From Lytechinus variegatus (lineage: Eukaryota; Echinodermata; Echinoidea; Temnopleuroida; Toxopneustidae), in contig NC_054746.1 in the NCBI RefSeq assembly GCF_018143015.1, positions 36,612,830-36,676,829 of the forward strand: a DNA stretch of 64,000 nucleotides, written 5' to 3'. Positions 2,947-34,033 of this stretch are shown one piece after another. The notes beneath the pieces are model-generated. The model worked only from the letters and a program-made list of their open reading frames with translations, was not told the DNA's origin and ran no database searches. The translations under genes were made by a program, and so were the position numbers. Within the stretch, counting starts at the first letter, position 1. Every line of letters begins with the position of its first letter.

Positions 2947-3246
2947 ACTTTATTAAGGAGTTTCTGAAACTTGATTATCATTGATGACACAAATGAAAAT
3001 ATCTAAAACCAGATCTTGAACAGTCATCATTTCTTGTAAGAAGCCTGTGCTAAATCAACGTCCTTCAGTGTTTGTTTCGGAGTATGGGATCCCTTTAAAG
3101 TAAGCCTTTATTATTAAGTTTCTCAAACTTGAGGCAGACAAACTAAATCAGTCCATCATTTCTTGACCATAGTCATCATCTCTTGTAGAAAAGTCTGAGC
3201 TGAAAGCAACATCCTTCAGCATGTGCTTGGGAATCTCAGATCCCCT
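2947..3246 (-). repeat. Diverged tandem duplication of the TSNAX 3' exon end
   Basis: About 150 bp at 2947-3106 resembles the adjacent 3107-3246, which contains the last codons and stop of TSNAX. Shared landmarks in order are a 'ctttatta...agtttct' block, 'aaacttga', 'agtcatcat', 'tcttgta', 'ccttcag' and 'ggatccc/agatccc'. By eye about three quarters of the positions match across the best part. The outer copy sits in the presumed 3' untranslated region. Confidence 0.6.
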
Positions 3247-6200
3247 GACTTTGATTACATAGCAGGCATCCTCCATTTTCTTCAAGCTCTGTCTCATCAC
3301 CGATGACTTGCGCACCATCTCGCGCCCTGCTACATTACCAAGTTGCTGGAATCCTCTGTTGACGTTCCTCATGAAATCAACTAACTGAAAGGGTCTCTCT
3401 AGGTCTCCGCTACCGATAATGTTTATACACATGCGCATGAGTTCCCCTGTGAAATCTGCCAGTCCAAGCATGTATTCAAGAGGTGGAAGTTTCAGAGACA
3501 ATGTCCTTTGGTCACTACCACATTTTGATTCCACTAATGGATCTTGCGGATCTTGCGGATCTGGAATCTCTGTGGAATCACTGGCTTCTGGTTGACCCGT
3601 TACTCCATCAGCATTCTCTGCTTCCTGGACAATTAAAAAAGTACATTGACATTATATGCAAACTACAGAGAATTTCACATAATTTTACATAACCTTTTTT
3701 CTCAATTTCCCAAATATAAATTTTGAAATCAATCTTGATTTGAGTTTGACTTCAAATAGCAAATTCTTTGTAAGACAGACCCATAATATCAACAAAAAGA
3801 CAATTTCGATTCATTTCAATGCAATTAATTTCATTCAATCATTTAAAATTCAAAATATATGAATCATACATGAATAAAAATCATTGCAAATAGAGTTTAC
3901 CTCAATATACTTAGAAAACCATGAAACAAGTATTTTAGCTCATGCTGGGTCATAAAATTGTATAAGTAACTCTGAACACCATATTTATAGAACTTTAGAC
4001 CACTGGATGTCATCACATTATGATTGAAGGTTACCTTATATCCTAGATGGGTATATAGTCCACCTCAAGAGAGAGAAAAAAAGCATTGTATTACACCTAT
4101 ATCAGATGAGTATCACCAATTCGGTTATACGTTCAGAGTATCATACCCACTAGTTTTATTTGATTTCTGGTTTTTATTCTAGTTGTGATTATCATAGACT
4201 TTTAACCCTAATTCTCCCGGGGTATTTTGATTCGTCATTATGGTAGAGAATGATGTAATCTATGCAGTTGCATTGGTAAATTTCACTGAATTCATATATT
4301 TTTATTTTATATGAATTAATTATGCTTATTTATTTATAAAATCATACCTTTTGCTCTAATTCACTAAATAAAGCTCCTAGAATGCTATTTTTTGGTGAAA
4401 ATATTCTTTATAGCATTCCTAACAATTGTGAATGAAAAGAATTCTGGTACTAAGACCGATTTCTTGTGTATTTTATAATTTCTTATGTATATCTTTGTTT
4501 TTTACTTTTTGTTTTTTCGATGGAAATCGTTCCAGACATAATTCTGATCATAAAAAAGGCAAAATTAATTAAGTTTAATCAGTAAAAGTAGAAATAATGA
4601 TACATTTATGAATTTTGGCTAATTTGCATTGGATTTGTACATAAAATGACATTTTTTAGCAATTTTAGGTCTGGCATACACTTACATAAAGTCGTAACCG
4701 CGTACCCGGGTGTCACAACTTTGGTCTCAAAATTGCGCGAGACTTGAAAGTAAAAAGTCAGTGAGCAGCGAGGTCAAAAAATTTTGCACAGCAGATATAT
4801 CACGAAAGTTGTCAAGGGGGGGGGGCGTTATGGACCCCCCCCCCCCCCCCGAGAGAATTAGGGTTAAAGAGTGAGAAAAATGAACCAGTAACAAGAACAA
4901 AACCAAGCTTTGACTAACCTTATTTTCAACCTGCTTGATGTCATCTTTCAGAGAAAATGTGAGTCTTGTAGCGATTTCATCAAGTGATAGAAGTCTTCCA
5001 TTTTTGATGAAGAGATAGAATGATACAGCCTCAATATACTCTTGAAGTCCTGGTGAAAACGCTCTGATAAACTGATGCAAGTCTTCACCCTAAAAGGGAG
5101 AAAATACGGATGTGAAAATATGAAATAAGAATACTTGAATTTATCATTTCTTCTACATACCAAATAGGCACAAATATCAGAACAAAACAGAAAGAAGATC
5201 CCTCTTCAGACAGCTGAATAGTATTTCAACATCTCTCATGTATTCCACAAGTGCCTACCAGAATCAAAGAACTGCATGGAGGGGTATAAGGTGAGTGATA
5301 CACATTATCTATCACAGATCAAGGTATCTTTTTATATTAACAAATCATCCCCCTTGAATTCTAAATTTCAAAACATTTTCCCCTTTCTTTAATTTCATTT
5401 CTATCCAGTAATCATAGGAAACATAAAATGTACCTTGAGTTCAGAAGCAACCTTAGAGATGAGTGTATCTTCCAATGACTTTAACCTTGTCTCTGCTTCA
5501 GTAAGAACCTTGTCACTGTCTCTGTAATGAGGTGTAATAATATTTTCAATCAATTAAAAACAAGAGCATGAGAGTAAAAATAAAGATAAGATATTACTGA
5601 TTAAAAAGGTGAATTTATCACGATCAAGAAAACAAATTATTAGTATACTGAGACTGGATATTGGAGAATGACTTCTAAAAGCATGGAAAATAATATTTTA
5701 GCAGCAAATATAACTTTTTTTGTCATAATAATCATTATTTCCATAAGCAAAATTGGCAGCATGTCAATTGGACAAAAGATGTTTTCTTCTTAGTATTAAA
5801 ATCCATTACACTAAAATCATCAATAACAAATTTGTTGGTAATAACAGAGCAAACATCAAAAGGAGTCCACCAGAATGTCAAATGCATATAAGAGCTGAAA
5901 ATGAGAGAAACATTCAAGTAGAAATGCTAATAAGACTAAAGTCTTACCCATCTATGCGGTGAAGCAGGAATATAATCCTCTTGCTCTCAATTGTAATATC
6001 TCTGCTGACTTTCACCAGTCTTTCATACTTGTCGTGCTTAAGATCAAGCTCAGACTGGTATTCTCTGGAAAAAAAAGATTGTAAGATATTGAAAAACCAT
6101 GACCTTGGTGAAAAAACAGTAATTATAATAAATAGTTCACGGACCAATTGATTCAGTCCCAACAAACTTGTTAAGTCACAAAATGGAATAAAACAATCAA

Positions 6201-9200
6201 GGAAACTCAATTTATGGTTCATCTTTAACCTCTCATATAATTGATTCAAATACCAAATTTGACTCCTGCTGTAACAAGAAAAACCCAGCTCTTCGTGAAT
6301 GATGAAATATTGTATCACTTACAGATTGTTAAAATGAATTAAAAAGAAATACTGAAAATGTCCTGGATGGGTCCTAGTAATGCTAAATTGACTAGCATTA
6401 TTCCATTTATAACTATAATGCAATTTTTATCTGAAAATCAACAAATGAGAAAACTCACTTAAAGGCTAGGAGGGTTGGTGTAAGCTCTACATTCTCTAGA
6501 CATCCTTCCTCGTCTTTCTTCTGTTTGGGATGATTTGAGCGATCACCTTTTCTGTTACGCTTGTATGGACCTTAGTAAAAATAATACATTAAAGAAAAAA
6601 AAAACTTACAATCAAGACAAGCACTAGCAGTACTTAGTTTTGTTTCTTAGATGTAGGGGTTGAGTCCGAGAGGCCAGAGGCAATTCACCTAACAATTACT
6701 TTTGAACTTACACTGAAGTCTGCCACAGTCGTCACAGACAATAAGAAATGTGCACTTGAATAAAGAAATTTTGTGTGTGAATGGTGATGAAACTTCATGA
6801 ACACAAACAAATTTATGCTAAGCCTGGCTAAGTTGAAGCCTTTGCATTTTTTTTAAACATTAACATGGAGTGTGTAACAACATCTCATGGGGGGGGTGGA
6901 ATAACTCGGGGTAACTCGTGAGGGGTTACTGTATAAAGCTATCATGCAGCTCAAAAAAAGATTCTGCATCTCATTAATCTAACAATTAGATACCAATTTC
7001 AGGAATTGTCTAGACAAACAACATGGTTTAAATGCAAGAACCAGCAACCTGTATTATGCCATCTTAAGCGCTCAATTATTCAAATCCTTTCCAAGAAAAT
7101 TTGAACTCCTCACCAGCATTAAGAAATCGCTATTTTGCAAGCAGAGGTCTTCAAAAAGTAAGTAAAATGTGATACCAAGTCACCAATTTTATGGCATTTT
7201 AACCTTCATCTGATACAAAGTTGTCTGCTTGACTTCCTTTTTACAGGATTGCAAAACTATCGTGCACAAAATGATTTAAGGACATACTTTTTTATGACAC
7301 TTTTTCAGCTGAGCGTGCACTGGTCAATCGCCATAGAATTTTAAGATTGCGATACCAGCGAAACTCTAGACCTAATTCCGTAGAGCAATTTTGACTCTGG
7401 GATTTTAGTAATGATTTTTACTCTCTCGGAGCCTCCTGGCTACGGACACCCAACCCCCCATCCTACCATACTTTCTTTGAATCATTGCCTCATTCGTACG
7501 CATCCTAAAGTATGCAAATAAACTAGACACCTAGGCCCGTATTCTGATACTGATAGCAGGTTTCACTTAAACTCAGGTTTAAAGTTGTGGTTTAATTATG
7601 GAAAGCCAAAGCATCAAAGTTTTTATAAGTAATATGTTTCTTATCTTTACTGTGCTCTTTTCTGATTCATCGATGGTGAAGATAATTATCTATTTATATG
7701 GTTGGAACTACCCCTATCGACCACCTAATCTTCTAAGCATTGTATCTGCGAAAATATTCATCAATTTTACCCAGTTTTCGTCTCATTTGAGCAGAAAATT
7801 AAGCAGATCAGAATCTCATGTTTTGCTCGGCGACTCCGATTCAATCCGCATATATATCGACGAACAACAAATGCGACGATTTTCCATTTGCTTATTTGCA
7901 CCCATCTTTTGAAACCGACCACTCGTGGTACACTAAGTTTACGGCCGATTCTTGTCGTGGTGGCGAAATATTTTTACTCTTTCAAATCTGTTCTATGACG
8001 TCAAGATGCCAAATGATCGCCTCACTACTTCCACTGCGAGCTCCGGCGCATGATTCGATGATTGGCGACGGATATTTGTTCTAAAGCAGTTTCCTATCGG
8101 ATTTCTTGGTTTTTCAGCGGGGTTTGGTCAATACAATTTTGAATAATTCTACTACATTTTTACTTTTTGTTGCTTCCTTTTTTCTCGTAAAATCGATTCT
8201 TGTCGTTTCTATGGACACTGCGCCTACTCTCCCGCGCGTATCGTTTGTAATACGCAATTATTTTAACGCGCGCAAGGCGGTCGGTTTCAAAAGATGTGGT
8301 CGATACACTGTATGTGGTAGTCTCACCACACCGGGTACTTCCTAGACAATAATGAATGATTTGAGAGCCAAATGAGCTGAACTGAAGAATATTTATACTG
8401 TTAATGATTTATGTAACAATTGGCTATCCATACTTAAACCACAACTTTAAACATGAGTTTAATAATTATAGGGGCCTAACGTAAATAGGGGGGCCCAAGG
8501 GCAAGGTATCATAATAAACTTGTCCCTGTCGTTCATTAGAATGAGTGAGGGGGGCCTAACCCAGGGAACTCCCGGCCACGTAGCGGGCGGGATCCCAGGA
8601 CCTTACGAGTAATTTGGCATACTCACCTGACAAGCGTGAAGTATGGTCAAAATAATTCTCCGAATAAATAGTTAAAACAGAAATCAAGCACTTACCACGA
8701 TTATAATGGATGAAGGTCTAACGAGTGGCAGTTTCCTGACATCTGGGCACAAACTGGAACCTAAAAAAAACGAGAAGTTCTCTCCTTCTACCCCCGTCTC
8801 GATCGGCCATTTTTGAATTTTGTTATGAATCGTAAGTTCGTAACAAAATGGCCAATCGAGACTGGGGTCGGAGAGAACTTTTCATTTTGAGGTTCCAGTT
8901 TGTGCCCAGATATCAGGAAACTGCCACTCGTTAGACCTTAATCCATATAATCGTGGTAAGTGCTTGATTTCTGTTTTAACTATTTATTCGGAGAATTATT
9001 TTGACCATACTTCACGCTTGTCAGGTGAATATGCCTTACACGTAAGGTCCTGGGCTCCCGCCCGCGTAGCAGGCGGCAGGAGTTCCCTGGGATCACTCAT
9101 TCAATGAACAAGGTTATAATATAACCTTATTCTCAGTTATATCTCCATGTGTGACAAAATAGGGTGGCAATGTTTGGCTTATTTTCTCTTTTTCTTTGGG

Positions 9201-9752
9201 GCAAATGCTTGATTTTTTTACAATGACAGTTTCCATTAGACCTGTTAATTCATACTGCTTGGCTCTTATTTAAATTTGATTATTTATATCATTTTTTCTT
9301 AATTAAAAATAGAGATCAAAAAATGAAAATTTTCTTGCCATATTACTTTCCACCAATAGAGGGCGTACACAAAAATATGCCCAAAATTCAAGTTTTTGAG
9401 CGCTCTGGTGAATACAAAAATTATTCCCACATTACTAATGATAAATAAATTAAAACTGTATGGAAATTAGTAACTTTGGTCACAAAAGTGATATTTTAAT
9501 GATTTTTCAAAGTGTGTGCTCTATACAGCATTGGCATACCATAGTCCTACCTGTAGATTCTCCACAGGCCAGATGGTAGCAGTGAACAAGTGCCTGGGAT
9601 AAGCCAGGCCCAGGGGGCCTAGCTAGATCTAACTTAGATTAGAAGGTTAATATTAGATACATAGCCATGGCATAGGTTAATAATTATTATTTGTCCAAAC
9701 CTCTGTCACGCTTTCCATCTCGATTCCATCCTTTCGTTTCAAAATCTGCCAT
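3148..9752 (-). CDS. TSNAX: Translin-associated factor X (Trax), six coding exons
   Basis: Trax pairs with translin to form C3PO, an endoribonuclease that removes the RISC passenger strand and processes tRNA fragments. Coding exons on the minus strand are 9701-9752, 6459-6570, 5948-6064, 5434-5521, 4919-5089 and 3148-3624; all have GT/AG ends and join in phase to 338 residues (human Trax has 290). The start ATG at 9752 opens MADFETKG and is followed by a basic segment resembling the Trax nuclear localisation region. Helical blocks [10 protein letters not shown] (exon 3), [11 protein letters not shown] (exon 5) and [13 protein letters not shown] (exon 6) match the family closely, as does [12 protein letters not shown] near the end. 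E140, E143 and D237 correspond to the known acidic catalytic residues. The extra length is mainly an acidic, Pro/Asp-rich insert at about residues 181-215. An in-frame upstream ATG at 9869 exists, but its extension does not look like Trax. Confidence 0.95.
4202..4866. repeat. Inverted-repeat element inside TSNAX intron 5
   Basis: The ends carry the inverted pair TTAACCCTAATTCTC at 4202-4216 and its complement at 4852-4866, each followed internally by a C/G run (very long, about 17 C, at the right end). It has no coding capacity. It lies wholly in the intron between TSNAX exons 5 and 6. Confidence 0.6.
7533..8480. repeat. MITE-like element in TSNAX intron 1
   Basis: The left end reads GGCCCGTATTCTGA, followed by a block with the core 'tttaaagttgtggttta' (7580-7595). 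The inverse of that block lies near the right end at 8430-8462. The right extremity is less well preserved. Three overlapping plus-strand reading frames (7598-8345) fall inside and resemble no family I know; I treat them as incidental. Confidence 0.5.
8515..9114. repeat. Foldback element, copy 1 (long inverted arms)
   Basis: Two arms of about 260 bp, each containing 'cctgacaagcgtgaagtatg' and 'actgccactcgttagacctt' in opposite orientation, meet around 8820-8850. The outer ends are inverted copies of CCCAGGGAACTCC (from 8560) and GGAGTTCCCTGGG (to 9091). In this copy inverted similarity continues outwards through 'ttcattagaatgagtg'. No open frame. It lies in TSNAX intron 1; a second copy is at 13444-13953. 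Confidence 0.75.
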
Positions 9753-11640: not shown

Positions 11641-12667
11641 CTTTAATACTATACTATACCTGCATCGGATCTATCTGCTGAGACTCAGAAGCAAGAGGAG
11701 GAATGAACAAACAAGAACAAGATATAGCGCCTTATAAAATTTGTATATTTTTATGATAGCTTCCTTCTTCCCCAGTATGTTTATTTTTCTATCGTTTCAG
11801 TTGTTTTCAGTTGTCCTTTGTAATTTGTGTCTTGGTGTTCCTTTACTAAGCGTGCATGAACCTTACTTTTGAGGTTTTAGTTTCACGATGTGCTCATATG
11901 TACCGGGTAGTTGGGACATGTGTGGTATTCATGGCTATATATGTCCGTTAATATACTATTATGGTCTGTGAGTGACCCCTCTCGGCTAGTTAAAGTCTTG
12001 GAGTATGTCCATCGTCATAATCATGGCTATGTCCGAGCTATATATGCAAATAGCTCATGTCTTTTGTTCAGAGTTCTGATGGCTATCAGTCAGAATTGTT
12101 TTTTTTTTGCCAAAGCTTTTAAAAAGAATTTAATATTAATAGATTCTTTCATATTTTTTACTTTGTCTTTTTTAAAATGTTTTTGGATCTCTTTTTTTTT
12201 CACGTTCTTTTTTTTTTTTGGGGGGGGGGTTCTTTCCTTTTATTATATTTTTTCCTTTCTCCCCGTGTTTTTTTCTGGGCCATTATATTTGCATGTAACA
12301 CAATATTTCGAAGCAAGTGGAAAAGGAATGTATAAATTTAAAAGAAATCAGCAAATATAACACAATGAGAAAATATAGATAAACATTTTGGGTTATGTCG
12401 GGTTTATCCACCTCAGCGAAGTGAATCTCTCATGCATAATTCATCAATCTTTGATTTCATTTGGTTTGCCATCCTACGTTAAAAATTTTACGCTGGATTT
12501 GAATGAACGAATGAGCTTTGCACGTGACATCTGACTTTGGAACAGAGCAAATTCGAGGACGTACAGTGTAGGGGAGTCTTGGGAAAATAACAGGAGCAAA
12601 TCGTGGTTAAGACCAGGCCCAAGTCGTACCCTCTGCATCATTCTGGTAAACCACTCGAGGACAGAAA

Positions 12668-13443: not shown

Positions 13444-13953
13444 CTAACCCAGGGAACTCCTGCCCGCTACGCGGGCGGGAGTTCCAAGGATCTTACGTGC
13501 AATTTGGCATACTCACCTGACAAGCGTGAATTATGGTCAAAATAATTCTCCGAATAAATAGTTAAAACAGAAATCAAGCACTTACCACGATTATATGGAT
13601 GATGGTCTAACGAGTGGCAGTTTTTCTGACATCTGGGCACAGACTGGAACCTCAAAAAACGAAAAGTTCTCTCCTTCTACCCCTGTTTTGATTGGCCATT
13701 TTGTTACAATTCATAACAAAAATGGCTGATCGAGACGGGGGTAGAAGGAGAGAACTTTTCGTTTTTTGAGGTTGCAGTCTGTGCCCAGAGGTCAGAAAAA
13801 CTGCCACTCGTTAGACCTTCATCCATATAATCGTGGTAAGTGCTTGATTTCTGTTTTAACTATTCAGATAATTATTTTGACCATACTTCACGCTTGTCAG
13901 GTGAGTATGCCTTTACACGTAAGATCCTGGGCTCCTGGGAGTTCCCTGGGTTA
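13444..13953. repeat. Foldback element, copy 2, with target duplication
   Basis: This is the same element as at 8515-9114. The ends read CTAACCCAGGGAACTCC and, inverted, GGAGTTCCCTGGGTTA. They are flanked by matching direct repeats GGTTCCAG at 13436-13443 and 13954-13961, consistent with an 8-bp target-site duplication (7 bp if the boundary G is assigned to the element). The arms meet near 13700. Reading frames on both strands are mirror images created by the arms. Confidence 0.75.
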
Positions 13954-13965
13954 GGTTCCAGCATA

Positions 13966-15044
13966 GTTTTTGTCTCACCTGCATAGCAGAGTGAGACTAT
14001 AGGCGGCGGTGGCGTCAACATCAAATCTTAACCTAAGTTTTTGAAATGACATAACTTAAAAAGTATATGGACCTAGTTCATGAAACTTAGCCATAAGGTT
14101 AATCAAGTATTACTGAACATCCTATTAGAGTTTCATGTCACATGACCAAGGTCAAAGGTCATTTAGGGTCAATGAACTTAGACCTTGTTGGGGAATCAAC
14201 ATCAAAATCTTAACCTGAGGTTAAGTTTTTGAAATGTCATCATAACTTAGAAATATATGGACCTAGTTCATTAAACTTGGACATAAGGTTAATCAAGTAT
14301 CACCAAACATCCTGTGCAAGTTTCAGGTCACATGATCAAGGTCAAAGGTCATTTAGGGTCAATGAACTTTGGCCAAATTGGGGGTATTTGTTGAATTACC
14401 ATCATAACTTTGAAAGTATGTTGGTTTAGTTCATAAAACTTGGACATAAGAGTAATCAAGTATCACTGAACATCCTGTGCGCATTTTAGGTCACATGACC
14501 AAGGTCAAAGGTCAATGAACTTTGGCCATAATGGGGGTATCTGTTGAATTACCATCATAACTTTGCAAGTTTATTGATCTGACTTTTGAAACTTGGACAT
14601 AAGAGTAATCAAGTATCACTGAATATCCTGTGCAAGTTTCAGGTCACATGATCAAGGTCAAAGGTCATGTGAGGTCAATGAATTTTGGCCACTTTGAGGG
14701 TATTTGTTGAATTACCATACTATCTCTGTAAGTGTATTTGTCTAGTTCATAAAACGTGGAAATAAGAGTAACCAAGTATTACTGAACATCTTGTGCGAAT
14801 TATTTAGTTTTCAAAGTCAGCACTGCTGCCAGGGGTCGCGGAACGGTTTTCAAAGTGGGGGGGTTGACCATGCTAAAAATCACAATCATATGGTCATTTT
14901 TATGTTTTTGTACACAGTTTTGGAAAAAAGTGGGGGGGGGGGCTGAAGCCCCCCCAGCCCCCCCCCCCCTGGTTCCGCGGCCCCTGGCTGCTATGTTGAA
15001 TCGCGTGATGCAGGTGAGACGGCCAGAGGCATTCCACTTGTTCT
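13966..15044 (+). repeat. DR1-bearing repeat element, copy 1
   Basis: The element has inner inverted ends GTCTCACCTGCAT (13972-13984) and ATGCAGGTGAGAC (15008-15020). Its limits are set by comparison with copy 2 at 21064-21965. The body is about five tandem units of 150-190 bp, each with phrases such as 'ataaggttaatcaagtat' and 'aactttggcca'. Four units contain a perfect AGGTCAAAGGTCA at 14149, 14339, 14502 and 14655. A 157-bp element is nested near its right end. Confidence 0.8.
14830..14986. repeat. Nested hAT-like MITE with 5-bp target duplication
   Basis: The ends CAGGGGTCGCGGAAC and GTTCCGCGGCCCCTG are inverted with one mismatch. The flanks are GCTGC on both sides (14825-14829, 14987-14991). 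The sister DR1 element at 21.1 kb has a single GCTGC at the same place, so it serves as the empty site. The interior holds a C-run/G-run hairpin. Confidence 0.75.
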
Positions 15045-16075
15045 TATTTTGCATTGCTGTATGTAGTGTTCAAATAATTCTTTTAGACACTGTACATTAC
15101 CAGAAAAAATTCAAGAATTCTGTGAAAAAGAAACGATTGCAAAAACACTGTGAAAAGTAAATCTAATCATGCAAATGTTCTTCTGTAGGCTGATAATCAT
15201 AAACATGCAAATTGTAGATAAAAGGTACTGTCATATTGTCATAGTAATGGAATGAGGGAACATGAAGGAAGTTTGGCAATAACCTTCATTTATATCCATA
15301 TTTAAAATGAATCGTTTTTCAAGTTTGCAGATAAACATTTCTGATGCGATTTGAATGTCTGACAATCTGAAATGTTTTGTGGACATTGTTTTGAGTGATT
15401 TCATTTTTTGCATGCCACAAAATTGAAGGCTTATTTACAAAGAGAAACACTTATCCAATAGGAGAGGAATGTACATGCTATGGGTAGACTAAAAGATTCA
15501 GTAGGCTGTCTTTGTTCTACTACATCTTGTTCCTCACACTTCATACAAAGAATAAGAAAAATGTTGACTTGATAAATAACAGAGGGGCATTACTTCCACC
15601 TCCTTGTTTGCACTATTCAGGCCTGGAATTTTAGGCCTTTACAATGAGTGTAGTTATGAAAATGAAATCATATGAAATGAAATATTAATGAAATCCTTAC
15701 ATGCTGTGTCCACATGTCATATCTTTGAACCAGTCTTTTTCCCGAATGACAATATGATTTGGCTGTTAACAAAAGGTTTGGCGTGAATGAGCACCACTTT
15801 TTAACATTTGATGAAAAAAATGACCTGCGAAAATTTGTTTAGAGGAGTAGCATTGATAAAGTGGAGAAAATCACGAAGAGCACATGCACTTTAGATAAGA
15901 AGAATGATTTATCCCCTTTTCTAACTTTATTCCTTCGTGAGCATCACAACGTTCTCTCAAGCTCCAATGCCTCCCTCCCCCCCCCAACCCACGCAAGTAG
16001 ACCAAGGAGAATACATGTAAAAAAAAATTGATAGAAAATGCTATCCAGGTTTGGAATGGGCTGAAATGATCTTTG

Positions 16076-20712: not shown

Positions 20713-20901
20713 CTACACATGCTCAATAGTGTTAATATCTGGAGACTGTGCTTGCCAATTTTCAAGATATTTGATCTTCTTTAGCTTAAAAAATTTCTTG
20801 GTGAAAGCTGAAGTGTGACAAGGAGCTCTGTCCCGCAGGAAAATCTGCCCTTTCTTGTAGGTGGGCATGTAGCTGGAGGTCAGAATCTGCTGATACTTCA
20901 T
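20713..20901 (-). pseudogene. Tc1/mariner transposase fragment
   Basis: A 62-codon open segment carries the second catalytic Asp motif (FLRDRAPCHTS) and the SPDINTIEHVW block with the final acidic residue. The preceding catalytic segment (GGGKIMVWG) is in the same frame but beyond a stop codon, and the N-terminal DNA-binding part is not seen. It is a relic of the enclosing element's own enzyme. Confidence 0.8.
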
Positions 20902-21063
20902 GCTATCAATGTTCCCATCTGATGTAGCCCCACACCATTATTTTCCCACCTCCAAATTTGACGGTCTTCTGGGTGTACTTGGCGTTCAGACGGGTGCCAC
21001 TTGGTCGCCGGCAGTGCTGATATCGTTTGGGATGTACTGTAGTGTTGAGAATGGATGGACTCT

Positions 21064-21965
21064 AGAACAAGTGGAATGCCTCTGGCCGTCTCACCTGCAT
21101 CACGTGGTTCAATATAGCAGCAGTGCTGACTTTGAAAACTACTCTAACTCGCACAAGATGTTCAGTGATACATGGTTACTCTTATGTCCACTTTTTATGA
21201 ACTAGACCAATAAACTTACAGAGATATGATGGTTATTAAAAAAAAAACCAACATGGCCAAAGTTCATTGACCTTACATGACCTTTGACCTTGATCATGTG
21301 ACCTGAAACTCGCACAGGATGTTCAGTGATACTTGATTACTCTTATGTCCAATATTCATGAATCAGATCCATAAACTTTCAAAGTTATGATGGTAATTCA
21401 ACAGATACACCCAATTCGGCCAAAGTTCATTGACCTTTGACCTTGGTCGTGTGACCTGAAATGCGCACAGGATGTTCAGTGATACTTGATTACTCTAATG
21501 TCCAAGTTTAATGAATTAGATCATAAACTTTCAAAGTTATGATGGTAATTCAACAGATACCCCCATTCGGCCAAAGTTCATTGACCCTAAATGACCTTTG
21601 ACCTTAATCATGAGACCTGAAACTTGCACAAAATGATCAGTGATGCTTGATTACTATTATGTCCAAGTTTCATGAATCAGATCCATAAACTTTCAAAGTT
21701 ATGATGGGAATTCAACAGATACGGCCTAAGTTCATTGACCCTAAATGACCTTTGACCTTGGTCATGTGACATGAAACTCTAATAGGATGTTCAGTAATAC
21801 TTGATTAACCTTATGGCCAAGTTTCATGAACTAGGTCCATATACTTTCTAAGTTATAATGTCATTTCAAAAACTTAACCTTAGGTTAAGATTTGATGTTG
21901 ACGCCTCAGCCGTCGGAAAAGCGGCGCCTATAGTCTCACTCTGCTATGCAGGTGAGACAAAAATG
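21064..21965 (-). repeat. DR1-bearing repeat element, copy 2, nested in Tc1/mariner
   Basis: Same element as 13966-15044, in opposite orientation, inserted into the interior of the Tc1/mariner element. The inner inverted ends are GTCTCACCTGCAT (21088) and ATGCAGGTGAGAC (to 21958). TGACCTTTGACCT, the complement of the DR1 word, occurs at 21278, 21431, 21592 and 21746. It lacks the small element nested in copy 1. Confidence 0.8.
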
Positions 21966-23199: not shown

Positions 23200-25790
23200 A
23201 TTTGGCGAAATTTTTTATTTTATTTTCATTCTGTCAGTAATACTTATATTTTTTTGAAGGCGTGGGACTGGGGCGGCTGAAAATCTAAACTTTTGCTTTT
23301 ATTTCTCAAGGGTCAAAGGTCAGTATTCGTACATCTAATTGAACTTTGCCATGTACCATTTTATTCAACAGGTCCTACGCTACAAAATAAATATAACTTG
23401 TAATGAACAAAAGTAAATTTATAAAAAACTGTTTCAATTTGTTTGGAACAATGCCTACAGATTACCAGTTTTGTTTCCTCTAGTGAGAGATTGCCTTTAC
23501 GTGTCTAATCTGTAGGTGCTGTAGGGTTAAATCATAGTGAAACAGTTTAATTAGGCCTTCTTGATTTCCTTTTCTGCATAGAAGTATAGTTAAACTCCTG
23601 GTCATCTGATCATTTTCCTGACATCGCTTGTTGAAATATTCTAATTCACTGATTTAATTGGGTTTTGTTAACTCAAGAATGTGTGCTCATTGATGTGGGT
23701 GGTCCATGTCTTAGAATGAGATGCTATAATGTGTGTGTGAAAGTATACAGGAAGTGATGAATTTGAACAGTTGGAAGACACTGGAACTAGTCTTGTGGCT
23801 ATGAAAATTCAGTGGCTTCTGTGATAAACATGTACATGTGTGTTTTCACTCTAATCTACCATTGCTGCTCCCAAGTTGTGTCTCGGGGTTGGCAATTTCC
23901 CCGGAAATGCTGGGAAAACTTGTAAATGTTTGGAAATACTTAAGATGTACAGGGAGATGCAGGGAAGTGGTAGAATATGCTTAAGAAACATCTGGGGAGT
24001 GTTTCATCAACATTTTCATCCGACAAGTTGTCAGATCTGACATCTTTCTCTGATGTTGATTGGCTGAGAGGTACTGTTACTATGGTAACTGTCGGATAAA
24101 ATGGGACTTGTCGGATGAAACGTCCGACAAGTCCTTTCATGAAACGCCCCCCTGGAAATACCTGAAAATATTCAAGAAGTATATTTGTTAGTATTTCCCT
24201 GCTTTATCAACTATTCCCCATTTTCCTAAAAATATCATTTACTGGTATTTACCACCAATATTTCCCACCCCTGACAACCCTGTTGTGTATGTCTCATTGA
24301 AGCCAATTCATAATCATAATTTGAAGGAAAAACATCCAGAAAAGAGGTATCGAAATCAGAGGAATCAAGAATATTTAAGATATCCAGAAAGGGTTGGAAA
24401 TTATGAGATGAAAGACAAAATCCTTTTGTAGTGTCTAAAAATCTGAAATATTATTTGGATGATTATATCCCCCAGCTCTGTGTAGGAATACTCTATCCCC
24501 GGATTGAACTTATCTCGAACGACTACTCCTTTAGAGATAATTCTGAGTCATGAAAATGAAAATTTGACAGAAATAAGATATTCGTAATATTTTTTTTTAA
24601 GTCTGTCTATAGGAAGAAAATCATTAATAACAGAATTGCACCTTTGAACTTGTTAATTTCTTAATTGCCAATTCAGTTCTCATGTTATGTACTTTGCTTA
24701 ATCTGAACTTTTTTCTTACTTGAAGTTTTGGTATATAAAGAGCTGAATATATATAGAACCCGTTCTTCCATCTTGTGACCTAGAAGCATCCGTGTAGATT
24801 CGGAGAACATGAGACCACTTTTAGTAATTATTTCATTTGCATCTTCTTTTGACTATCGGTAAATTGGACAGGTATGTGAATACCGAGCTGATAGAATATT
24901 TTTAAGATGGCTTGTGAGGGGGGGGGGAGGTGATGTGACATTTGCATGACTGACCTCACATGTGAGTTCTTAGAGCAGCTCTAGTGTTACATAGCTCTTC
25001 TAGAGACAACTTTTCTCTATTTGACAGCTTGTGATAAAACCGACTGTAATAGGGACAGTGTCCTTGTAATATTCCTCCAGCAATTTATTACATTTTATTT
25101 ATAAATGTACTTGCCCTGTCAAGCATAATGCTACTAGTGTCTAAAAGAATATCCATTGCCGCATCATCGAGGCTTGCTTAAACTTCCTCAATATTTTGAT
25201 AAATCAATATCATCATGTTATTTAATTCATCCTGTCCCAGGATGAGTGTCTCTGAGGCAAAGAACTCTCACCCTCCCTCATGAGTCACTGATATCCTTCA
25301 TACTTGCATCCAGATTGTGATGTCTTGTCACTCAAGAAGTCAATGTTACTGTGGCTAGGACGATCTTTGGCTGAGCTGACTGCTCCATTTCTCAATCCAT
25401 TATTTTAAAAGGCTGCCAAAACAATTAGACAAGATTCTCGCAAATACTGCGAAGGAGCTCTTAATTTTGAGGTACATTTTATTTTCCTCTGATGTAGAAT
25501 GCGGCCTAGCATTGGACATGGTATGCGTTAAGTCAGGTGATAGTCTTGACTTCAGACCATGTTCTAACCCGACTGAAATGTATAAAAAGTAGTTTTAAAG
25601 ATAGTACCAGATGTCAATGAAAAGATCATTAAACTGAAGCTGAAGAGACTTTCCACGTTTATTTGCAGACAGATGCATGAAATGACAAGAACAACCACAA
25701 ATATACACAATGAGATTTTCCATCTGAATGTAAGTTTTTACTCCTTGTGCTTACCATGCATAAAAACTGACACATTTTATCCACGAATTC
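23200..25790. other. Mostly unannotated, one small MITE
   Basis: Apart from the element at 23994-24152 I see no supported gene. Short recurrent phrases such as 'gggaaatac' near 23900-24180 suggest old repeat debris. Confidence 0.4.
23994..24152. repeat. Short MITE with GGGGNGTTTCAT ends
   Basis: The inverted ends GGGGAGTGTTTCAT and ATGAAACGCCCCCC flank internal inverted ACTTGTCGGATGAAA words. It resembles a MITE class widespread in deuterostomes (from memory). Confidence 0.6.
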
Positions 25791-29545: not shown

Positions 29546-32500
29546 CAGTCAACTTCACCTAAGTCAAATCTCTAGGGACTTAGAAAAAACTATCGACTTA
29601 CACGATTTTCGACTTAAGAGATTTATGAATGAGTCGAAGAAAAAATCGACTTAGAATAGATACGTGTGTACATGTACAGCTGTATTATGAATGTGCACGA
29701 TTTTGTCCGATTGGACGTGTATTAAGATACATAGCCACATCACATCGTTGGCGGCATGACGAGGATAGGATTTGGATTTTTGTGAAGTAAATAAGTTTTT
29801 AAAATCCTAACATACCTTCGTGTTCACAAAATATGACCTCTAATTCCCGTTCTACGTGATACTGATTAAAATTCCAGTGTATATAATCCTTGAATTCTTG
29901 GCGTGTATTTGTTTTTGCAAACGAATGAGCGTGCATGCTCACCACGCATGTGCCTGTGATTTCTAGCTCTGTTTGTGATGTGATCCAGGTCAGCAGCACC
30001 TGGCCTGGGAAGTGAGTCGAGCCAAGCGCGAGAGCAGGGTCGAAGGAATGAATGTGTGCTTTGTTGTGGATGTAAAAAATGAGGTCATAGGGAAGGAGGA
30101 AGGGGCGGGGTAGAGATAAGCTACAAATTTCCTTCTTTTCATCTCCTTCCACCTGTTTTAGCAATATACGTTTCTCATTCATCCAACCACCGTTCCTCCA
30201 CTTTGGAAAAAAAAATCGCTTGTCATTTTGTTCTCTTCCGTATGCCTAATTCTTTATCTCGATTATTTTGGTTCTTTTTATTTTTCTCACTATCTTGTAC
30301 CCGTCTAGTTAATATCATTTACTTCCCACTTTCTTTTGTTTTTCTGAAATTATGGTGTCTTTCTACTTCCACTCACTCCTGTTGTATCTCTTAAATTTAT
30401 TATCTCCTATAATTATTCTCTCAGATTATGTTCTCTCTTCAACTCCTGTTGTATCTTAATCTTCTTATCAGTACTCCTAACTATCTTCCGTATTTTCTCC
30501 CTCTCATTTATCTTTCATTAGGTGTATGTTATCGTCTCTGTCACTCCTCTTGGATTTTCGAAAAACTGTTTAATTATTCATTTGTTTTTTTTTAATAGGC
30601 CTACTGGCTTACTCCATTCTTCTCACTTTCGCTTATCACATCATCAACCCCTTGGCATTCTAGCACTCTCGTCTAGCCAGTCACAAAATTCACACGGCCA
30701 GAGGATCTAGAGGCTGTCGTCGTGACATCTTTTTATTAAACAGTAACAGCAAAACATGTGGTCAAAACACACGTGGTCATTGAAGGCAACGTGTACATTT
30801 TCACAGATAAAAACAAAGCATTTTTAGTGGTCGGTTCACTCTAGTTCGCACTTAGTAACTCCATATCGTTTACATATAATGAATGTAATTAAGTAGGGGA
30901 TCGAGAGTGCCAATAAAAGGTGGTGGGTGTGTCTTGTGCAGACTTTGTAGTGGGAGGGATAAAGAAACTCCACATGGATCTGTCATGTGGTGCACTGTGC
31001 ATTTTCCTCTCTAATATGGTGTACAAGTCATGTAAACACAACGAATACGATTGTTTAAGCATAGGCTACTCTTTAAAGGGTTACATCAAGGCGTTACCAC
31101 GACATACGCAGGTACAACGTTAATGAATCTGTGTAATTAACTTGTAAAATGTAGAGATTCGTTTCAGAAACAATTTTAAAAAAGAGTTTGACATGATTAA
31201 AGCTTTAACATTATTTTTTGCTTTTGATGTACATGTATTTTGCAGTAGAAATAAACAAAGCTGCACATGAAAAAATGATGGTTTGATGATGCCGTACCGA
31301 AATTAAAAACGTTTAAGCATGTCGGCTTCATGAATAAATAGTAAAATTGTACAAGACAGAACATAAAGCTACAAGTAGGTCTTCAGTTAGCAGAACATGA
31401 TAACAATTTGGTACATGTAAATAAGACGTAGGCGTACATAGTAAAAAAGAATAACTTAGCTTGTAAAAAGCATCACTGATGAACAGATATGAATCTTTCA
31501 AAAGTAAAAAAAAAAATGAGTAGGCTTATACAAAGCAGCTTACAAGTTAACTGTACGACATGTTATGGAAAGGAAAAGACATGTTACTTGAAAAAGTCGG
31601 TGATAGATGTTTGTTTTTGACGGTTCTGAAGTTGGCTCATGAGGTACGATTCATATCTGTCCACGTATGACCCATACTCCTCAGAGCATTCATTTGCCAG
31701 ATTATAACGGCGGATTGTATCTATTGCAGCAAAAGCTTGTTTCAAAGTTGGTGGGTCGGTCACACTGCTCTCATCTTCTACCGGATCTTCCTCGGGGTCC
31801 TCTGGTGATGTTTTGATGGATGCTACGATTTCCGCATCTGTCAACTCCTCATGGCACTCTATGTTGTTATCAACATCGATGTAGTCATCGAGTGGTGGAA
31901 CATTGGCCAGTATGTCAGTTAGCCGATCCCAGATGTTCCTGAACTCCCTGTTAGTCTCGCGTGGATTGGGAATGGGATGGGGAGCTTCATGGGCCGGATC
32001 CTCATGGGCAGGTTCATGGGGAGCTTCATCATCCGAGACCTGATCACCATCCTCAACATCCAAACACACAAATCCCACGCTTTGGTAGATGTTTACGATT
32101 GTGGCGGGGGTCACCTTAGCCCAGGCAGCTTTCAAGGCAAGATTTGCGTCAAGGAAATCCCATTTAAATGGCGTGTCCATTTCTGCTGCCGCGAGTCGTC
32201 GTGACTCCAGGATATGCCGATAGTGGAGTTTCAGATTCTGGATGACTCCTCCATCCATTGGCTGTGTCATACTTGTTGTGTTGGGGGGCAGAAACACAAG
32301 TTCAGTATTTTCCAGTGTGACGATAGGGTGGGCCGGGCAGTTGTCAACAACCATGGCAATCTTCCTGCTCTGCCATCCCATCTTGTCAAGTTTTCGCAGC
32401 CAACTATCAAAGAGACCGCTGTTCATCCATGCTTTCTTGTTTTTCCTCATATTCGACTGGAAGTTTTTTGACATTTTTGAATGCTCGAGGCCTCTTGCTC

Positions 32501-34033
32501 TTTCCTATTACTAACAGCGGCCGGCATCTTATCATTTCCATCCATATTAGCACACACAAGGGCGTGTTTTAGACTGCTTGCTGCCATGGTAAGACGTACC
32601 AGTGAATCCTAGTGATTTTTCCGGCAACATCTGCCAGAAGATGCCTGTTTCATCAGCATTGTAGATGTCAGCAGGGGCATAGCGAGTCAAAATATCCTTG
32701 AGTCCTCCCTCCTTCCATTCAGTCACAACTTCTTCGTTCCCTCCAGCAGCCTTCCCTGCCTTACTGATGCATCCAATACCATGCCGTAAGAGGAGCGTCA
32801 TGCCCAAATTGTTCTGCAAAATGCTTGGCCTTAGTGAGAAGCATTTCCCCATCCAAGCTGCAAGTCTGGCTGAGATTACTTTTGGCGAAACCATTAGAGA
32901 AGTGCGGCATCACATCATCAAATGTTATTGTCTTCCTTCTCTTTAAGTTCCCTTTTCAGGCATCTTTCGGGGTTTCCACTGCCTCGATAATTTTCTCTTT
33001 GCACTTTAGAATATCTGACAGTGTGTTTGGCTTTAAGTTAAACTTAGGTGCGACATCTTTCCTCTTCATATTTGGGTTTTCGTCAACAAACTTGATAATT
33101 TCGTACTTCTCATCGTACGATCTTGTGCTTAATTTTCTCTTAGCAGGCATGATGGGTGGTTGTTCACAGCGAGAGGAGCAAGTCAGAAAGTGATAACTCA
33201 CTCACGCTACCTGCAAGGATGAGGAAGGAGTGGTGTTACGTAACCAGATTGAAACAGCTGACACAGCTTCATCATCCCACTTGCAGAAATGTAAAAAAAA
33301 TGGAGGACCGATAAAACACTGTTTATCTGTTGTGTCGAGTCTGTGATGGTTAAAAAAATTTGATCTCAAACAACTCGTGTCTTTAGAATGAAAAGCAAAA
33401 AATAAAAAATGAGAAATATCATAAAAATAAAAAGATGAATAAATAACTTCCCCTTAAAGGAGCAGAAGGAGGTTGAGGATTCTTAAATGAATTGCAACTG
33501 TGTAAGGTTTTCCATCAAAAAGATGTAGTGCATTGAACCAAAGTCTGCACAGGAAGGAGACCACACATGTTGCGAGAACGCAAGAGGGGTGAGAGAGAGA
33601 AAAAGAGAGAGGAGACTTGAGGAGGAAAGAACAACATGTACGGTGATGATGCTGGCATAAACTCATGTTTATGTATGGAGGGGGAGGGCCGGCTCTGTGC
33701 ACGGCATGTGTTTGCAAAGGTCTCGTGTGTATGTGTGCATGCGTATGCAAGCGCTGGAGAACAAGTGTGATACACAGGAGAATGCTGTTCAACAGTACAT
33801 CGTGGCTCGTGTTTAATGTTTGGACAGCGAGTGATTTCATTCGACTTACGTAATGTAAATGACGTGCTTTTTCCAACTTTATTGCTCTGTAATTCGATCG
33901 ACTTGGACAACTATTCAACATAAAAATCGGCTAATAAAGAGAATTAATACACATAAGTCTATGAGGAATTTTTTTCCCTTTGACTTGTCCGACTTTTCGA
34001 CTTACACACGTTCGACTTTTGCGAAGTTGACTG
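29546..34033 (-). mobile_element. pogo/Tigger-type DNA transposon
   Basis: The inverted ends CAGTCAACTTC (29546) and GAAGTTGACTG (to 34033) are each followed inward by several TCGACTTA-like words, giving clustered subterminal repeats on both sides. The right flank begins with TA, the expected target; the left flank is TATC, so the duplication is imperfect. The minus strand carries a broken DDE transposase at 31584-33150. At about 4.5 kb it is long for this family; the left 1.8 kb has no recognised gene. Confidence 0.75.
31584..33150 (-). pseudogene. Tigger/CENP-B-like DDE transposase, frameshifted
   Basis: Reading begins at ATG 33150 (MPAKRKLSTRSYDEKYEIIK), a pogo-type helix-turn-helix with NLKPNTLSDILKCKEKI. 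Next, in another frame, comes YNADETGIFWQMLPEKSL with the first catalytic Asp (about 32640). The 296-codon segment 31584-32474 holds VVDNCPAHP (second Asp) and TQPMDGGVIQNLK (third Asp), then an acidic C-terminal tail ending in TSITDFFK. A stop near 32956, a frame change before 32894 and another break between 32547 and 32474 show it is not functional. The long C-terminal frame remains open, which suggests it is not very old. Confidence 0.85.

Follow-up and report, generated by a model that had tools for sequence, protein, structure and literature searches.

Perfect DR1 words in a very abundant, probably Helentron-like transposon of the sea urchin Lytechinus variegatus appear to owe their conservation to the source lineage rather than to host selection on dispersed copies

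Why should a repeat in a sea urchin genome carry several perfect nuclear-receptor words within units that have otherwise drifted apart? The question arises from an initial annotation of a 64,000-nucleotide stretch of Lytechinus variegatus DNA (the window hereafter), which pointed out four copies of AGGTCAAAGGTCA in a repeat element, suggested that a mobile element spreading such clustered words could seed receptor-responsive enhancers and read the persistence of the word in diverged units as a hint of constraint. The word has DR1 architecture, a pair of AGGTCA half-sites with one base between them, and all four copies are present on the plus strand exactly where they had been placed (Table 1). 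The observation stands and goes further than first described, as the window contains, besides the reported copy (W1), a second four-word copy of the element (W2) that had been overlooked together with its words. With up to two mismatches allowed, the word occurs 10 times in the window (8 exact matches, one with one mismatch and one with two) compared with 1.95 expected, and none of 100 dinucleotide shuffles reaches 10. The match with two mismatches lies at 14173 on the minus strand, inside W1. The match with one mismatch, GGGTCAAAGGTCA at 23310-23322, lies outside W1 and W2.

The genome searched comprises 869,567,369 bases in 33 contigs, the window being part of contig C7. Exact CAAGGTCAAAGGTCA occurs at 33,810 places, about one per 26 kb, versus 2 for the pattern read backwards, and the 34-base 5' end of the element is found at 9,454 places with at most three mismatches, versus none for the backward control. 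The word count is far above chance, yet it is due to the amplification of a single repeat family rather than to the word having arisen independently many times. Scans of viral contigs with three word-bearing patterns, and one scan of genome contigs, returned no relatives.

The ends of the element are delimited by a boundary consensus built from 70 five-prime and 53 three-prime ends, in which the element begins with GTCTCACCTGCAT after a T-run and finishes with ATGCAGGTGAGAC...GGCATTCCACTTGTT. W1 is directly preceded by TTTTT (13967-13971), and the bounds first assigned to it, 13966-15044, were nearly exact: the T-run gives way to the element at 13972, and CACTTGTT closes the 3' end at 15042. 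The first 13 bases of a 5' hairpin form the 5' subterminal inverted repeat (13972-13984), and its 3' counterpart is followed by 22 bases up to the end of W1. The 57 bases at the 5' end of the family fold at a z-score of -5.4, with none of 200 shuffles folding equally well. The core of the family is a tandem array whose units measure about 153-163 bp; full copies mostly have four to six of them, and every unit class examined carries the DR1 word apart from the last. In W1, this last unit harbours a nested insertion of 157 bp that is flanked by GCTGC on both sides and has 15-bp inverted ends, CAGGGGTCGCGGAAC and GTTCCGCGGCCCCTG, matching at 14 of 15 positions by eye. The element has no coding capacity, as judged from the position of reading frames within the window: among the 49 stop-to-stop frames of at least 95 amino acids, one touches W1 (14786-15160) and runs through the nested insertion, while one touches W2 (20894-21205) and spans its 3' end. 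Rfam gave no match at the gathering score.

Table 1. Parts of the two element copies in the window
Feature	Position	Strand	Basis and remarks
Element copy W1 (reported copy)	13972..15042	+	ends by anchor, boundary consensus and empty sites of other copies
5' end hairpin GTCTCACCTGCATAGCAGAGTGAGAC	13972..13997	+	read from sequence
Unit 1	14050..14193	+	nhmmer, unit profile; word 14149-14161
Unit 2	14239..14400	+	nhmmer, unit profile; word 14339-14351
Unit 3, 153 bp	14401..14553	+	nhmmer; word 14502-14514, lacks 10 bp after the word
Unit 4	14554..14716	+	nhmmer, unit profile; word 14655-14667
Unit 5 (last), without word	14721..14861	+	nhmmer; matched range enters the nested insertion at 14830
Nested insertion, not family sequence	14830..14986	.	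by eye against the 3' consensus
3' subterminal inverted repeat ATGCAGGTGAGAC	15008..15020	+	exact reverse complement of 13972-13984
Element copy W2	21066..21958	-	exact words 21746-21758, 21592-21604, 21431-21443 and 21278-21290 (-)

Elsewhere in the window, a minus-strand translin-family gene at about 3.1-6.3 kb, represented by three frames (3148-6318) that are probably exons of TSNAX, is the host-gene match lying nearest to the element in a scan of six frames. An open frame of 306 amino acids with a DDE_1 endonuclease domain, a transposase remnant, lies at 31584-32504 on the minus strand. Just 5' of W1 there is a large inverted repeat (foldback, 13500-13920), the centre of which resembles, by eye, the left flank of copy L058.

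Whether the word is conserved depends on which changes are considered. Copies were sampled by anchoring on the 5' end, so that they were chosen blind to the word; L001-L030, the best matches to a word-holding query, were left out because such a query biases the sample. From the 70 anchored copies, 7 were excluded as flank duplicates (L044, L054, L055, L074, L079, L094 and L095), and 18 fragmentary units as well as 50 'last' units (without the word) were set aside, leaving 257 units from 61 of the 63 remaining copies in five unit classes. Variants present in at least four units of a class, hence shared between copies, are absent from all 65 word sites but present at 108 of 700 others (Fisher 5e-5; 105 of 660 others under a second alignment and column range), and the word sites remain free of shared variants at thresholds of five, six and eight units. 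At lower thresholds they do vary, at 4 of 65 sites versus 133 of 660 for three units and at 9 of 65 versus 210 of 660 for two. Counted by columns, none of 13 is variable in the word versus 71 of 137 elsewhere (hypergeometric 1.4e-4), and the longest invariant run spans 15 columns (AAGGTCAAAGGTCAT; P 0.002 by column shuffling). When units are pooled without regard to class, variants in at least 8 of the 257 units affect 1 of 13 word columns versus 64 of 134 others. In identity to the class consensus the word ranks second of 137 windows, with the windows of columns 119-123 nearly as good. On moderate evidence, therefore, no other part of the unit has changed as little in the source lineage as the word, with columns 119-136 coming close; we grade the evidence as moderate because the shared variants stem from few events in the source, so that the Fisher value overstates the support.

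Few events also leave some room for ancestry alone. It is possible that a 7-bp duplication in an old unit (AGGTCAA twice) simply created the DR1 word and that a handful of source events passed it on, with no need for selection. The word is formally such a short tandem duplication, the variants are not independent, and two statistics fit this scenario: on class consensuses only, the longest invariant run (CAAGGTCAAAGGTCA, 15 bases) has a P of 0.076, and in the pooled units 4 of 13 word columns, versus 82 of 134 others, hold a variant at the threshold of 4 of 257 units. Against it stand the lack of word variants shared by four or more units of a class, which persists as the threshold is raised to eight, and the density of half-sites: units of the five word-bearing classes contain 4-5 RGKTCA half-sites each, versus about 0.6 in dinucleotide shuffles. 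We regard descent without selection as a serious candidate, although the less probable one.

Another scenario is that the word matters as structure, pairing imperfectly with AATGAACTTTGGCC as an inverted repeat and thereby making a single-strand hairpin that serves rolling-circle replication or recombination of the array. Folding of four class forms of this segment outdid that of shuffles each time (z -4.9, -5.3, -3.5 and -2.3), the second arm is located within the second-best conserved region, and one class has lost the loop while retaining both arms. However, each of the four folded forms has at least one mismatch, and the conservation looks one-sided, if on small numbers, with variation in 0 of 13 columns of the word versus 4 of 14 in the other arm. 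Since no source-level change has occurred in the word arm, two-sided compensation is not seen. The one-sided conservation speaks weakly for a protein that reads the sequence directly, and we consider a hairpin function doubtful.

A different picture emerges for changes that arose in individual copies. Here, single-unit changes (singletons) are taken as mostly post-insertion, and sites at which the main letter accounts for less than 85% are skipped, a filter that retains all 65 word sites. The 13-mer is intact in 209 of the 257 units. Singletons affect 40 of 3275 letters in the word and 350 of 32932 elsewhere, a base-corrected ratio of 1.13; bootstrapping over the 61 elements gives 1.12 with a 95% range of 0.74-1.55, and the word is only 92nd of 151 windows, counted from the slowest, for such changes. 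The ratio drops as shared variants enter, to 0.88 with variants in up to two units, 0.90 with up to three and 0.65 with all. Copies with unshared flanks have ratios of 0.76 (up to two units; 36 changes seen, 47.3 expected) and 0.64 (all), and the 18 copies with a shared flank 0.82 in both cases. The ratio of 0.76 and the singleton range that extends down to 0.74 leave room for a weak constraint after insertion.

Genome-wide counts give the same answer. Between exact 10-base anchors on both sides, the word 15-mer is intact at 12,372 of 14,802 places (83.6%), while a control 15-mer from the same unit, which has two near-equally common source forms where the word has one, retains a source form at 5,078 of 6,018 anchored places (2,524 + 2,554; 84.4%). 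Because the word 15-mer includes two bases before the 13-mer and the control stretch retains minor shared forms, this near equality should be trusted to within perhaps one quarter of that rate; when 100 of the 14,802 places were inspected by eye, 15 were changed in the 13-mer and 9 more only in the two preceding bases. A comparison of exact 50-mers (5,827 with the word, 1,934 without) was dropped as a decay test because the first 50-mer appears to be common to more unit classes than the second.

These data bear on the proposal that dispersed copies act as receptor-responsive enhancers in which the host maintains the word by selection. It has attractions: W1 and W2 each bear four perfect DR1 words with the CAAGGTCA extension, the exact 15-mer is present in tens of thousands of copies, HNF4-binding sequences spread by Alu provide a precedent in the part of that report covered here (PMC3252374), and the ratio of 0.76 in copies with unshared flanks allows a weak constraint. 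However, singletons strike the word no less often than other sites, and the word is no more often intact across the genome than the control stretch. Thus, a constraint at the level of the host is unsupported on average: there is no clear sign of it after insertion and purifying selection is not evident. The initial annotation had suggested comparing substitution rates inside and outside the word, naming equal decay as the first of two outcomes that would speak against its idea, and equal decay is what the comparison returned. Its regulatory reading is therefore unsupported for the average copy, and we consider host maintenance very unlikely, although a small subset of copies may have been exapted. 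Its impression of a conserved word in drifted units holds for changes shared between copies but not as a sign of host selection. Since the conservation is confined to shared changes, its origin lies in the source lineage rather than in host selection on dispersed copies. The active lineage seems to have retained the word, either through selection acting on the element or possibly through chance, and to have amplified it, and the dispersed copies would mostly be inert receptor-like sites that are lost neutrally.

What kind of element did the amplifying? Identical ends recur in copies with differing flanks: one repeated flank is missing from 52 of the anchored copies and present in the other 18. 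These 18 sit in one larger amplified repeat that carries the element along and are not independent insertions, and several of the 52 pair up with near-identical flanks. The larger repeat is concentrated on contig C1 at about 0.1-4.3 Mb (15 of L031-L049), with L092, L098 and L100 in addition. TT immediately precedes the element in all 70 anchored copies, and each of the five preceding positions is a T in 65-70 of them. Empty sites were sought by joining the flanks without the T-run and the 3' end, for 79 entries with both ends (W1 being counted twice, as it is also L001). Three clean paralogous empty sites emerged, for L011 in L037, for L026 in L018 and for L061 within its own locus, and all three reveal a T-run target and no target-site duplication. 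Other matches spanning the junction were of low complexity, more diverged, in dense repeats or nested in the end of another copy; for W2 only its own two flanks matched. The initial view of a mobile element that spreads clustered perfect DR1 words is supported.

These properties fit a Helentron-like, HINE-type transposon. HINEs are defined by subterminal inverted repeats of at least 11 bp, which here measure 13 bp, are exact and recur in the family consensus, and by a T-rich target without target-site duplication, as in the empty sites; central tandem repeats, an optional trait, are present as well. The 3' end of the family has a weak fold around GCC-AGA-GGC that is no better than shuffles (z 0.03). 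Helitron_like_N domains were detected at 14 genomic places; at 11 the reported frame has no internal stop, and 10 of these 11 lie in frames of more than 1,200 amino acids. Six places with the Rep domain are clustered on contig C4 at about 2.14-2.50 Mb, four of them in frames of more than 3,200 amino acids. The 7.1 kb upstream of one of the 14 places do not contain the ends of the element, and no autonomous partner was found there. As with other HINEs, a Rep/helicase protein would mobilise the copies in trans, and the number of units would shift through recombination within the array. That the element is a cut-and-paste miniature element (MITE) is hardly probable, since, although it has inverted repeats close to both ends and such elements were formerly annotated as MITEs (PMC4067079, passages covered), the three empty sites do not display the fixed-length target-site duplication of a MITE and the repeats are subterminal, with 22 further bases on the 3' side. 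We therefore judge it probable, for the explanation as a whole, that this is a very abundant non-coding HINE-type transposon whose source lineage kept the word and whose copies lose it neutrally afterwards.

Among the closest known elements, the Tsp transposons of Strongylocentrotus purpuratus were reportedly described by Cohen, Liebermann and Kedes in 1985, and bivalve pearl elements, said to have been described by Gaffney and colleagues in 2003, reportedly have tandem core units between inverted-repeat ends, a likeness by description. BIV160 and SURF1 belong alongside the pearl elements. In the passages covered, the description of HINE and DINE-1-like non-autonomous Helentrons gives them subterminal inverted repeats, no coding sequence, T-rich targets without duplication and high copy number, with central tandem repeats in some, all as found here, and it mentions sea urchin and mollusc members (PMC4067079). 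Tsp, a heterogeneous family of sea urchin mobile elements, is classed there as DINE-1-like, again a likeness by description (PMC4067079, in part). Unlike HINEs, which are described with a 3' palindrome, our element has no significant 3' fold, and its 3' subterminal repeat ends 22 bases from the terminus compared with 38-60 in mite HINEs (PMC4067079, passages covered); receptor words are not mentioned in these passages. The Cg_HINE elements of the Pacific oyster, as far as their partial account goes, similarly hold short arrays built from satellite-like monomers, one of about 168 bp, between Helentron-type ends, and two short segments are conserved between otherwise dissimilar monomers; this likeness rests on the description and not on monomer sequence (PMC7492417). 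HNF4-binding Alu likewise is a transposon that spreads DR1-like receptor sites in huge numbers, but it is a primate SINE for which binding has been demonstrated in vitro, whereas the word here is known from sequence alone (PMC3252374, part covered).

The preferred explanation, upkeep of the word in the source lineage, implies that something acting on the element may need it. A DNA-binding protein that reads the word directly would be the first candidate, and it could be either a host receptor of the NR2 type (HNF4, COUP-TF or RXR) that is active where the element moves, or a protein of the element itself. NR2-set receptors are expressed in the development of marine invertebrates, and knock-down of RXR arrests sea urchin embryos, according to the part of a survey covered here (PMC7827873). 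An NR2-type receptor might open or transcribe the element in germ cells or early embryos. It is tempting, if speculative and on balance unlikely, to propose that the transposon keeps a host-receptor word for its own spread, flooding the genome with more than 33,000 exact words that are then lost neutrally. Among the papers listed from open-licence full-text literature, as far as titles and abstract openings tell, we found none tying these elements to receptors, and a full-text search with the word in its extended form and the complement of that form turned up a single paper, a decoy study on an unrelated matter.

The element belongs to a known kind of transposon, and its load of perfect receptor-like words is an unusual cargo. 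The case separates conservation inherited from a source element from constraint after insertion, two things that are often confused in claims that transposons seed enhancers; here, the former is seen and the latter is not. If the word does serve the spread of the element, the receptor sites would be a selfish trait and the host receptor pool a bystander or a sink. If the element needs the word, the family would amount to a natural experiment in which near-identical receptor-like sites number in the tens of thousands, and it could be used to learn how a genome copes with this load and whether a few of the copies, and which ones, get used.
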